From NCBI GenBank assembly GCA_016787645.1, contig JAEUUF010000026.1, positions 124,001-188,000 on the forward strand: a DNA stretch of 64,000 bases, given 5' to 3'. Each line of letters opens with the position of its first letter. The first letter of the stretch is position 1. Under the pieces are notes generated by a model that made no database searches, was not told where the DNA came from, and saw only the letters and a list, made by a program, of their open reading frames with translations. The DNA comes from Cyclobacteriaceae bacterium. GTDB lineage: Bacteria; Bacteroidota; Bacteroidia; Cytophagales; Cyclobacteriaceae. Below, in pieces: positions 1,524 through 22,248 of the stretch. Position numbers and translations under genes: made by a program.

Positions 1524-2345
1524 ATGACCGGTACGGAAGAGCACATTTGTAAGAGTTGCGGCAATCGATTTGCCGGTCTTTACTGCAATCAATGCGGTGA
1601 GCGGGTCATCCTTCCCCAGGACCGCTCCTTCCGAACCTTCCTCAGCAGTATCCTGGTTGCGCTGACATTTGCTGACAGCAAATTCTTCCGGTCAATCGGG
1701 TTGGTCGTAGTGAAACCTGGCTTTCTTTCCAGGGAATTTGCGGAAGGTCGACGGGTAAGATACCTGCGACCTATGTCTTTGTTCTTCCTGCTGAACCTTA
1801 TTTATTTCATCTTTCCGATCATCCAGCTCTTTAGCGCCACCCTCCGCACCCAACTCAATTCCTTCCATGGGCAGTACGCTGTTCCTGCCATCGCTTCCAA
1901 GATGACGGCGCTGGGCATCCGGGATATCAACTCATTTGCCCTCGTCTACGATCAAAAGACCGGTGGCCTGGCCAAAATGCTGGTGATCGTATTTGCCATA
2001 CTTGTTTCACTCCCCCTCAATCTCATCTATCGAAGCCGAAATCGATACTTTACGGATCATGTCGGTTTGGCCGTTGAACTGGTTTGCTTCAACCTTTTCA
2101 TTAATGCACTCGTGCTTTCACTTGTCGTAGCACTCTTTGGTCTCGGTTCATATATCAACGAATTTATCCTGAGTAGTATCCTGTTGACTACAAATCTTTA
2201 TTTCATCTTCCGTTCGGGCATCATGTTCTATGAAGACACAGGACTCAAACTAGTCCTCAGAAGCGTGCTGATGATTGGCGTGTTGAAAATTGCCCTGGAA
2301 GTATATAGGGCCATACTCTTCTATGTGACCATTTGGTCACTTTGA
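1524..2345 (+). CDS. DUF3667 family zinc-ribbon membrane protein
   Basis: This 273-residue protein starts with a zinc ribbon made of two CxxC pairs (Cys9, Cys12, Cys21, Cys24). Next comes the family's amphipathic region with 'KPGFLSREFAEGRRVRYLRP', then four or so transmembrane segments (around residues 85-105, 150-170, 185-210 and 240-265). This matches the DUF3667 family of Bacteroidota, whose function is unknown. The zinc ribbon is expected to face the cytoplasm. A second member is encoded at 34273-34974. A heptanucleotide repeat array begins 4 bp after the stop codon. Confidence 0.85.
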   Translation: MTGTEEHICKSCGNRFAGLYCNQCGERVILPQDRSFRTFLSSILVALTFADSKFFRSIGLVVVKPGFLSREFAEGRRVRYLRPMSLFFLLNLIYFIFPIIQLFSATLRTQLNSFHGQYAVPAIASKMTALGIRDINSFALVYDQKTGGLAKMLVIVFAILVSLPLNLIYRSRNRYFTDHVGLAVELVCFNLFINALVLSLVVALFGLGSYINEFILSSILLTTNLYFIFRSGIMFYEDTGLKLVLRSVLMIGVLKIALEVYRAILFYVTIWSL

Positions 2346-2349
2346 TCCC

Positions 2350-2384
2350 TAGTCACTAGCCACTAGTCACTGGCCACTGGCTGT
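2350..2384. repeat. Heptanucleotide tandem repeat, about five units
   Basis: The sequence reads as 7-bp units TAGTCAC, TAGCCAC, TAGTCAC, TGGCCAC and a degenerate TGGCTGT. It begins 4 bp after the DUF3667 stop. The consensus (TRGYCAC) belongs to the same family as the arrays at 20562-20666 and 22207-22234. Confidence 0.85.
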
Positions 2385-19003: not shown

Positions 19004-20698
19004 TCAATCTTTCACGATCGTAAACTCCACCCTCCGGTTCAATCTCCTTGTCTCCTCCGTTCGGTTGTCCGCGATCGGCTTTGTACCTCCGTATCCTTTT
19101 CCAGAGATCCTTCTCGAACTGATTCCCTTCGATACCAGGTAGGCTTTCACAGTCTGCACCCGCTTCTCAGAAAGATTCTTATTGTGCTCCGGGTTGCCGC
19201 GATTGTCCGTGTGTCCTGATAATTCAATTTCCACCTTCGGGTTCGTTTTCAGGAAGCTGACTACCTGGTCCAATTCGTCGTTGGACTCAGGCAGCAGGTT
19301 GGGAGTACTTTGTTGGAAGAGCACACTTTTCAGGTTGACGGTCGCCCCGATTTCAATGGGCTGCAGCTTGAAGTTCATCTCCAGCGAATTCATTTCATAA
19401 GTTCGCACATCGAGTTTCTCGAAATTCCCTATGTAACCTTCCTCTTCCACGTTAACGCTGTACTCATTCACTGAGGGAAACTTGATATCGTACTCCCCGT
19501 TGCGCCCTGTGGTGGCGCTGAATGTACTGTCGCTCTTGAATACAATCGACACCCCGCGAAGCGGTGAACCGGTCTTGGCATCCGTCACCCTTCCATAGAC
19601 ACGGAATAGTTTCTCTTCGGCGGTGATCGGCTTTTCGCGGACAATCTCCACCAGTTGCACGACGGTGTCCAATTTCTGCGCGATAAGGGAATCCTTGAGG
19701 TTGGGCGGGGGCGAAAACACTTTGATATCGCCAAGGCCATCACTATTCTGTGTGGAGGTATAAATGGCAATTTTTGCACCCGGCACTGTGCGATAGTACA
19801 ACTCCCGGCCTTCTGTATTGATATTGGCACCCATATTCACGGGTACGGTCCAGTTCGTCCACGTGTCATCGAGCCGCTCAGAGAAAAAGATATCAAAGCT
19901 GCCATAACCGCGCCGACCGTTGCTAGAGAAGTATAAGGTCTTCCCATCAGCGCTCAGGCTGGGCGCCCACTCCTGGTGCGACGTGTTGATTCGAGGCCCC
20001 AGGTTGATAGGTTCTGTCCACTGCCCCTGCTCGAGCAGCGAAACATAGATGTCTTCGGCGCCTACCGTGGTGAATGACTCCCCGGAGAAAACCAGGGCTT
20101 CAACGGTGGTCGAGAAATAGGCAAGGGTGTAGGGAGAACGATTATGAAAATAGGGAATGCGAATAAACTCGGGAGCTGACCAGCCATCTCCGGTCTTGCG
20201 CGATAGCGCTATGCCCTGCTTGGCGGCATTGTAGTTGTTGGCGAGAAACATTCGTTCTCCATCATGTGAAAACCCGATCACCGCATCGTAGCCCGCATCA
20301 TTGATCACCTTTCCGCCATGCACGGCTGGTCCCCATTGGTCTCCCAGCCACACGGAATACCAAATATCTCCCAGGTCTTTCTTTCCTCCAATATTTGAGG
20401 AATGACCTGCCACCGTGAAATACATCACCTTGCCATCCGGCGTTATCATCGGTGATTGCTCATCATGGATAGTGTTCGGTGCATCCAACGCGCGTTGCGT
20501 AAAAGTATGTTGAGCTTGTGAACGGGTAAGTATTGAGAAACAAAGGGTCAGTAGTAGTAAGTAACTGGTGACCTGTGGCCGGTGAACAGTGAGCAGTGAT
20601 CGGCAATCGGTGATCGGTGATCGGTGATCGGTGACCGGTGAACAGTGACCGGTGATCGGTGACTGGAAGTTTACAGTCTGCTTTATTTCGATACCCAT
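19004..20698 (-). CDS. OmpA-family protein with PD40 repeats and carboxypeptidase-like domain
   Basis: This 564-residue envelope protein has a signal peptide core only at residues 46-62 (YLLLLTLCFSILTRSQAQ). Then come PD40/TolB-like blades (about 75-330; SPMITPDGKVMYFTVAG, APSLSADGKTLYFSSNGRRG), a carboxypeptidase regulatory-like sandwich (about 365-445; GRVTDAKTGSPLRGVSIVFK), and an OmpA peptidoglycan-binding domain (455-564; LSGHTDNRGNPEHN, with RLNRRVEF). It probably tethers the outer membrane to the cell wall. The only available start overlaps the mpg stop by 16 bp. Residues 12-46 are encoded by a heptanucleotide repeat, which gives a visible 7-residue period before the signal core. Confidence 0.85.
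   Translation of the reverse strand: MGIEIKQTVNFQSPITGHCSPVTDHRSPITDCRSLLTVHRPQVTSYLLLLTLCFSILTRSQAQHTFTQRALDAPNTIHDEQSPMITPDGKVMYFTVAGHSSNIGGKKDLGDIWYSVWLGDQWGPAVHGGKVINDAGYDAVIGFSHDGERMFLANNYNAAKQGIALSRKTGDGWSAPEFIRIPYFHNRSPYTLAYFSTTVEALVFSGESFTTVGAEDIYVSLLEQGQWTEPINLGPRINTSHQEWAPSLSADGKTLYFSSNGRRGYGSFDIFFSERLDDTWTNWTVPVNMGANINTEGRELYYRTVPGAKIAIYTSTQNSDGLGDIKVFSPPPNLKDSLIAQKLDTVVQLVEIVREKPITAEEKLFRVYGRVTDAKTGSPLRGVSIVFKSDSTFSATTGRNGEYDIKFPSVNEYSVNVEEEGYIGNFEKLDVRTYEMNSLEMNFKLQPIEIGATVNLKSVLFQQSTPNLLPESNDELDQVVSFLKTNPKVEIELSGHTDNRGNPEHNKNLSEKRVQTVKAYLVSKGISSRRISGKGYGGTKPIADNRTEETRRLNRRVEFTIVKD
20562..20666. repeat. Heptanucleotide tandem repeat, 15 units, inside the start region of the OmpA-family gene
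   Basis: Fifteen consecutive 7-bp units, mostly TGATCGG, TGACCGG or TGAACAG on the plus strand, fill exactly 105 bp. Three units make 21 bp, so the minus-strand reading frame shows a 7-residue period (SPITGHC, SPVTDHR, SPITDCR, SLLTVHR, PQVTSYL). It lies 16 bp beyond the mpg stop. Loss or gain of one unit would shift the OmpA-family frame. Confidence 0.95.
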
Positions 20699-21279
20699 TC
20701 GTTGTCTTTTAATATGAACCTCCAGGGCAGTTGTGCGTCTTCCCCGGCATAGTCGATGCCAATTCTGGGGCTGGCCACAATTTCCTTCTTGCCCACCTTA
20801 TATCCTACGTCCGCCAGCCAAACTTGCCTGGACCGCAAGGGAACCCCGTTGTGCGTGCGGTCAATACCCAGTGCGCGAGTGAGTTTGCCGGGACCCGAGG
20901 TGATACGTTTCGAGTGCTGAACTCCAGCGCGATCTTGCATGATGTTGACTCCCTCCATTGGTTCCAATGCCCTGATCAGGACTGCTTCCGCCTTCCCTTT
21001 ACGGTTGGTTACAACATTAAACAGATTATACATCCCATAACAGAGGTAAACATACGCGTGGCCCCCTTCATCAAACATCACCGCATTCCGCTGGGTCATT
21101 CGACTGTCGTAGGCGTGGCAGCCTCTCTCTTTCCACGAATATGCTTCCGTTTCAACAATCAGGCCAGCAGTGATTTCACCATCCAACCGCGTATAAAGGG
21201 CCTTCCCAATCAGGTCCCGGGCAATTCGTGTCACGTCATTGCGATAATAAAAGGCCTCAGGAAGCAGCATCTGGCGCAA
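20683..21279 (-). CDS. mpg: DNA-3-methyladenine glycosylase, AAG/Mpg type
   Basis: This 198-residue protein is a full-length member of the alkyladenine DNA glycosylase family. These are base-excision enzymes that flip out and remove alkylated and deaminated purines. Visible features are the N-terminal DVTRIARDLIGK, the catalytic-loop region IVETEAYSWKERGCHAYD with the water-activating Glu, the VYLCYGMYNLFNVVT strand, and the conserved GPGKLTRALGI. The start may be Met1 (21279) or Met4 (21270). Its stop overlaps the start of the OmpA-family gene, which may be translationally coupled. It is divergent from the DUF2911 gene. Confidence 0.93.
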   Translation of the reverse strand: MRQMLLPEAFYYRNDVTRIARDLIGKALYTRLDGEITAGLIVETEAYSWKERGCHAYDSRMTQRNAVMFDEGGHAYVYLCYGMYNLFNVVTNRKGKAEAVLIRALEPMEGVNIMQDRAGVQHSKRITSGPGKLTRALGIDRTHNGVPLRSRQVWLADVGYKVGKKEIVASPRIGIDYAGEDAQLPWRFILKDNEWVSK

Positions 21280-21359: not shown

Positions 21360-22208
21360 ATGAAAAGAGTTTTGATCCTCCTTTTGGTGGCAGCAAGCCT
21401 CGTGGCCCAGGCCCAGGTCGTTACCCCAGCCGCCAGCCCGGCCGCTACGGTATCCACAGTCGTTGGCCTTACCGATGTGAAAGTCGAGTACTCCCGCCCC
21501 AAGGCTAAGGGCCGCAAGATCTTTGGCGCAGGCGCTGACTTTGTTACCCCCTACGGACAAGTATGGCGTACAGGCGCCAATGCCGGAACAACCATCACCT
21601 TCAGTGATGATGTAAAATTCGGCGGTGTAGATGTGCCCAAAGGCAAGTACCTCGTGCTCACAATCCCCGGAGCCGCTGAATGGACCGTGATCCTCTACAA
21701 GGATATCAACCTCGGTGGCAATGTCTCCGCTTACGATCAAAAGAACGACCAGGCCCGCGCGGTCGTAAAGCCGGAGACGCTCGCCCAGAAGGTGGAAGCC
21801 TTCACGATTGAGATTGCTGACCTTTCTGCTGACAGCAAATCCGCCAACTTCCAGTTGATGTGGGACAACACGTCAGTGAAAGTGCCAATCGTAGTTGACT
21901 ATGACAAAAAAGTACAGGCTTCTATTGACGCGAACACAGCCGTTAATCCCAATAACCTGTATGCTGCTGCCAGCTACTATCTGGAGAATGGCAAAGACCT
22001 GAAGAAAGCACTCGAGTGGTGCACTACCGCCGCAGCAGCCCGTCCCCAGGCCTATTGGGTCATGTACACCAAAGCAAAAATTCAGCAAGCCCTCGGCGAC
22101 AAGAAAGGCGCCATGGAGTCCGCTAACGCCTCCAAAGCTGAGGCCGAAAAGCAAAAAGACGGAGCCTACGTTCGCATGAACGACGAACTTCTGAAAGCAC
22201 TGAAATAG
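21360..22208 (+). CDS. DUF2911 family secreted protein with TPR-like tail
   Basis: This 282-residue protein has a signal peptide (MKRVLILLLVAASLVAQAQ). The DUF2911 domain follows (about residues 25-175; VEYSRPKAKGRKIFG, GQVWRTGANAGTTITFSDDV, GAAEWTVILYKD). A C-terminal helical region of about 90 residues looks like two TPR-type hairpins (NLYAAASYYLENGKDLKKAL, YWVMYTKAKIQQALGDKKGA). DUF2911 is widespread in Bacteroidota and has no established function. The stop codon lies within the first unit of a heptamer repeat and is followed by a strong terminator. Confidence 0.88.
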   Translation: MKRVLILLLVAASLVAQAQVVTPAASPAATVSTVVGLTDVKVEYSRPKAKGRKIFGAGADFVTPYGQVWRTGANAGTTITFSDDVKFGGVDVPKGKYLVLTIPGAAEWTVILYKDINLGGNVSAYDQKNDQARAVVKPETLAQKVEAFTIEIADLSADSKSANFQLMWDNTSVKVPIVVDYDKKVQASIDANTAVNPNNLYAAASYYLENGKDLKKALEWCTTAAAARPQAYWVMYTKAKIQQALGDKKGAMESANASKAEAEKQKDGAYVRMNDELLKALK

Positions 22209-22234
22209 TGGCTAGTGACTAGTGGCTAGTCGCT
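22207..22234. repeat. Heptanucleotide tandem repeat, four units
   Basis: Units AGTGGCT, AGTGACT, AGTGGCT, AGTCGCT. This is the same family as 2350-2384 in the opposite orientation. The first unit overlaps the TAG stop of the DUF2911 gene. Confidence 0.85.
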
Positions 22235-22248
22235 TGTAAGTAATAAGC

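Follow-up and report, generated by a model that had tools for sequence, protein, structure and literature searches.

Introduction

Dispersed heptamer arrays are known and so far little explained. Long heptanucleotide repeats form the most abundant class according to Mrazek et al. (2007), as cited in PMC4679880, and several described systems resemble the array reported below. In neuO, the polysialate O-acetyltransferase gene of prophage CUS-3 in E. coli K1, AAGACTC is repeated 3 to 53 times across 64 genomes (PMC13001214). As at our locus, the heptanucleotide repeats lie in the 5' coding region, and unit numbers divisible by 3 give full-length translation (PMC13001214). Unlike neuO, the array described here has degenerate units, encodes a head placed before a signal peptide, belongs to a dispersed repeat family and is known from one genome per species.

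The TAACTGA direct repeats of Beggiatoaceae, Cyanobacteria and some Bacteroidetes also resemble that family: they are likewise 7 bp long, mostly intergenic, often found just before start codons, and mixed with related heptamers (MacGregor 2015, PMC4679880). Some of them lie where ORFs begin or end, oriented so as to be free of stops (PMC4679880). The unit of our array differs from both TAACTGA and its complement, and neither start relocation nor signal-peptide recoding figures in the parts of the TAACTGA account that were covered (PMC4679880). The GGGNATC and GGGGA(C/T)T heptamers of Xanthomonas and Nostoc are likewise dispersed, variable in their units and mostly between genes, but they have another, G-rich unit and were studied as G-quadruplex formers (PMC4692102). 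Finally, 7-bp repeats act from upstream on the envelope genes hmw1A and hmw2A of Haemophilus influenzae; in that case, however, the TGAAAGA copies are in the promoter and the effect is on transcription (PMC2651432). A literature search with most subscription journals outside its scope returned nothing on heptad-recoded signal peptides or on start relocation by heptads.

The Array and Its Reading Frame

The window, which is the whole 64,000-nucleotide stretch analyzed, contains the following features at the locus:

19004..20698, minus strand: PD40 / carboxypeptidase regulatory-like / OmpA envelope gene (ORF list, Pfam, NCBIfam, solved-structure relatives)
20513..20563, minus strand: signal-peptide core and likely cleavage site, YLLLLTLCFSILTRSQA (rough in-house scoring only)
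20561..20665, minus strand: 15 degenerate heptads, translated in frame (TRF, unit analysis)
20683..21279, minus strand: mpg, DNA-3-methyladenine glycosylase (ORF list, Pfam, NCBIfam)
20696..20698, minus strand: the sole in-frame ATG upstream of the signal core, inside mpg and overlapping the W codon near the mpg end

The first ORF has 564 codons and starts at the ATG at 20698, while the mpg ORF ends at 20683, overlapping the first 16 bases of its neighbor. The PD40, carboxypeptidase regulatory-like and OmpA domains detected by Pfam fit an envelope, peptidoglycan-binding protein. Surface exposure, part of the original prediction, is conjectural. The protein belongs to neither of two NCBIfam models that it matches far under their curated cut-offs, PorE (168.7 against 600) and the CHU_0125 OmpA model (207.9 against 620). 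Among the best 60 of 77 matches to solved structures, the relatives cover the OmpA domain alone.

As predicted, fifteen full-length 7-bp units lie in frame between the ATG at 20698 and the signal core. The span first given for them, 20562-20698, does contain the array, but it also takes in the bases separating the array from the ATG; the borders 20561 and 20665 were counted from the unit string, and the analyzed slices are one base off. The units are contiguous and non-identical, with nine types comprising CGATCAC (five copies), CGGTCAC, TGTTCAC and six others. Lag-7 identity is 0.77, and the longest perfect period-7 run measures 29 bp (20606-20634). The TRF scores of the array, 96 and 103, are the highest of the seven TRF rows in the window. 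The sequence also confirms that there is no ATG, GTG or TTG from the array to the signal core. Taking residue 73 as a landmark, the ORF has no in-frame ATG between 20698 and this residue, and its first in-frame GTG or TTG is two codons before it.

This arrangement recalls neuO (PMC13001214), and phase variation was the first of two explanations put forward. In this reading, slipped-strand changes in heptad number would move the start in and out of frame, switching an envelope protein on and off. Such a switch is mechanically possible. The unit is not a multiple of 3 and is inside the 5' coding region, 15 is divisible by 3, and adding or removing one or two units destroys the product in silico through a stop at codon 48-81, as anticipated, whereas removing three keeps the frame. 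Against this, the array lacks the homogeneous units that favor slippage, since nine types occur among 15 and the longest perfect run is 29 bp. We consider a dedicated switch of this kind improbable, and the comparisons below bear on it further. The array is open in all three sense frames and has stops in every antisense frame; its openness alone is therefore no evidence of coding, and comparison is needed to judge it.

A Family of Dispersed Heptads

The array in the window is a member of a dispersed family of degenerate 7-bp arrays located mainly between genes. The pattern RGTGANYRGTGANYRGTGA occurs 49 times in the genome from which the window comes (4.02 Mb, 28 contigs), compared with 8 matches for the reversed control pattern; array counts for this genome rest on such pattern searches and on sampled stretches. 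Sixteen places inspected there have several unit types, all with period 7, and TTCAAAG, CCCCTAA and GGCACTA types are among those found beside RGTGANY. One stretch (L067:2175-2603, contig C5) begins with an array of about 335 bp that shifts between heptad types and continues with a 73-bp CCCCTAA-type array. In a 464-kb sample made up of the window and 20 other stretches, lag 7 yields 8 regions, as opposed to none in one shuffle; the harmonic lag 14 yields 6, and the remaining lags from 4 to 16 yield 0 to 2. Period 7 thus dominates the sample. Two of the further arrays are in the window itself:

2343..2383, strand not assigned: further heptad array, beginning at the stop end of an ORF
22203..22241, strand not assigned: further heptad array, beginning at the stop end of the DUF2911 ORF

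Mechanical ORFs cover 91% of the 464 kb, yet only two of the eight sampled arrays (that of the window and one in a PorP gene) are fully inside an ORF, with two at an edge and four outside. This predominance of arrays outside ORFs argues against phase variation as the reason for the array.

The RGTGANYRGTGANYRGTGA pattern is present in 10 of the 59 genomes of the genus, so the window's array type is patchy. Two other heptad patterns occur in 49 and 37 of the 291 genomes of the order, although the second count overstates the window's type, because several genomes match the reversed control equally. Of the 14-mers in the window array, 46/92 recur in other arrays of the same genome and 5/92 in those of G054, the nearest relative, whereas 0/142 from the G054 array recur in the other G054 arrays compared. 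An origin from a genome-wide dialect is consequently shown for the window's genome only. In another genome of the comparison (G123, L313-L317), 474 matches to one heptad pattern are found; its arrays often end at a start codon, and in two genes there is a TTG within the last unit.

The Start Codon in Orthologous Loci

Fifty-four loci were compared, 53 of them distinct, with L141 counted as a duplicate of L126; the set excludes weaker matches, five genomes without a match at 1e-90, and four genus members. In a contig scan for orthologues, named organisms reach 48% identity at best and one metagenome record reaches 71%. The mpg end is upstream from the OmpA-type gene in 50 of the 53 distinct loci. 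In 51/53 the nearest ATG precedes the landmark by no more than 39 codons; the two exceptions are the window, at 72 codons, and G054, at 83. Both carry heptads, which differ in sequence, and in both the frame is open to the same mpg ATG, with no ATG, GTG or TTG between array and signal core in either species. The G054 copy of the gene is cut by a contig end and has a second ATG directly after the mpg stop. Because the arrangement is paralleled in G054, an assembly error behind it is unlikely.

One could suppose that the long ORF is an illusion of annotation, with a non-ATG start within or after the array and the array itself forming only a 5' untranslated region. Arrays in the order often end at a start codon, one genome has a TTG inside the last unit, and a usable start is present at the array's end in 66 of the 74 ORFs fronted by an array. 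Gene starts beside such arrays are often mis-set. We nevertheless find this reading doubtful at our locus, given that none of the three start codons is there in either species and that both have an open upstream frame in the right phase. The same two genomes speak against phase variation, as both diverged species with this arrangement are in frame. It is much harder still to credit that the array deprived the gene of its start and left a young pseudogene: the original start position does appear overwritten, but 518 codons align at 65-68% identity to four relatives with no internal stop, and the frame reaches an ATG in both species.

The ATG now reached has its own history. A W codon is conserved at the mpg end, and the base preceding it creates an ATG in 30 of 49 orthologues. 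Nine of these 30 are in the OmpA frame and four are open throughout (the window, G054, L038 and L117), L038 and L117 having a near ATG of their own besides. An open connection to the mpg ATG exists in 2/2 loci needing it, compared with 2/28 of the other orthologues that have it (one-sided Fisher p=0.014, resting on two related genomes that possibly represent one shared event). This ATG was therefore present for the sake of mpg and available for capture.

Period 7 between mpg and the signal core is at the shuffle floor (p 0.0033) in six distinct loci: L031 (the window), L126 (G054), L044, L052, L100 and L121. It is weaker in L098 (p 0.017). In L044 and L100, ATTC-like heptads are between the sole plausible ATG and the signal core. 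ATTC-type heptads also precede the core in L052 and L098, but those two have a later ATG that could be used instead; L121 has its array ahead of the ATG. These leaders indicate that heptads have reached the leader of the gene in more than one lineage.

A Probable Takeover of the Start Region

Across these 53 loci, one gene pair presents an array in place of the start codon and a frame open to an upstream ATG, in two species. The comparison favors the second of the original explanations, namely an invasion of the sequence following mpg by the repeat, which then came to serve as the start: a near ATG is the rule in 51/53, and arrays with an open frame to the mpg ATG are found here and in G054. 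We think it probable that the array took over the start region and that translation moved to the mpg ATG, so that the array would be mainly a relic kept in frame rather than a dedicated switch.

The following history can be proposed. In an ancestor shared with G054, an array would have filled the short gap after mpg, covering the original ompA-like start codon. As every sense frame of this type of repeat is free of stop codons, the ATG already existing in the conserved mpg end could rescue the gene; the sequence of this connection is plain in both genomes, and its translation is presumed. The product would then start with about 45 mostly repeat-coded residues, acting as a long n-region ahead of an ordinary signal core, and this head would be removed on export. 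The n- and h-regions of signal peptides accept many sequences, which may be why the event was tolerated. A change in unit number could still switch the gene off. Certain points weigh against the takeover: an array open in every sense frame makes in-frame reading cheap, an uncommon start codon (CTG or ATT, for instance) could be in or after the array, and the loci compared include no array-free strain of the species. No mobile-element gene or terminal repeat was seen on inspection at the array.

Heptads in Other Leaders and Proteins

Heptads also code for parts of other exported proteins. In the PorP/SprF gene of the window's own genome (L218:2762-3709, contig C3; Pfam E 2.7e-67), the h-region is coded by CATTTTA-type heptads, ICILHFTFCILHSAPA. 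This leader has 22/28 lag-7 matches (p 0.0033), compared with 9-16 in all 29 other PorP loci, whose signal peptides look ordinary by eye. In an M20 peptidase (L261:244-1698, G006:C351), the signal peptide is coded by CATTTTT heptads with 26/28 lag-7 matches (p 0.0033). The other M20 loci that retain an N-terminus, 26/26, have 9-14 and are ordinary by eye; L409 and L410 have no N-terminus, and L411 repeats the G006 gene. Some of the loci in these comparisons are paralogues. Leader heptads are also present in an OEP protein (G058), a CusB-like protein (G068) and a SPOR lipoprotein (G021).

A first survey gave eight rows in which an array crosses a start. L031 and L327 are one gene counted twice, and two rows were dropped by eye, L276 for a later lipoprotein start and L301 for an antisense frame. 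This left the window OmpA, the G054 OmpA, the M20 peptidase, the OEP protein and the CusB-like protein, to which the PorP protein and the SPOR lipoprotein were added by hand. When the OmpA genes are set aside, 5/5 crossings are in exported proteins, compared with 19/62 signal-like proteins among ORFs starting at an array's end, a set from which L044, L052, L100 and L218 were dropped as misfiled or spurious (Fisher p=0.0044; the test is a post hoc one, a pattern with a hydrophobic translation picked up three of the five, and the signal score also flags cytosolic-looking proteins such as L258 and L260). A further 56 stretches, containing 82 arrays, showed no N-terminal crossing, the six rows with an ATG before the array, L462 among them, being judged by eye.

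More tentatively, heptad arrays may be recurrent raw material for signal peptides in these Bacteroidota. Extending from the gaps between genes, they would repeatedly overwrite starts and the n- and h-regions of exported proteins, shift the start to upstream ATGs, and persist since the new leader works and is then cleaved. Together with the locus described here, the heptad-coded signal peptides point to a testable route by which selfish or slippage-made repeats could be turned into coding sequence, in the most change-tolerant part of a protein.

The idea that arrays cross starts only in exported genes meets a counterexample in an FAD monooxygenase (L462:1310-2665, G058), where the stretch is internal. 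In this gene and in L468 and L469, in-frame heptads code for part of a loop; they span 66 bp in all three sibling species, although their letters differ. Translated heptads can evidently be stable, and they are not confined to exported proteins. The fixed length of this in-frame stretch likewise tells against phase variation in the window, and finding a 7-bp repeat within a reading frame does not on its own point to such variation.
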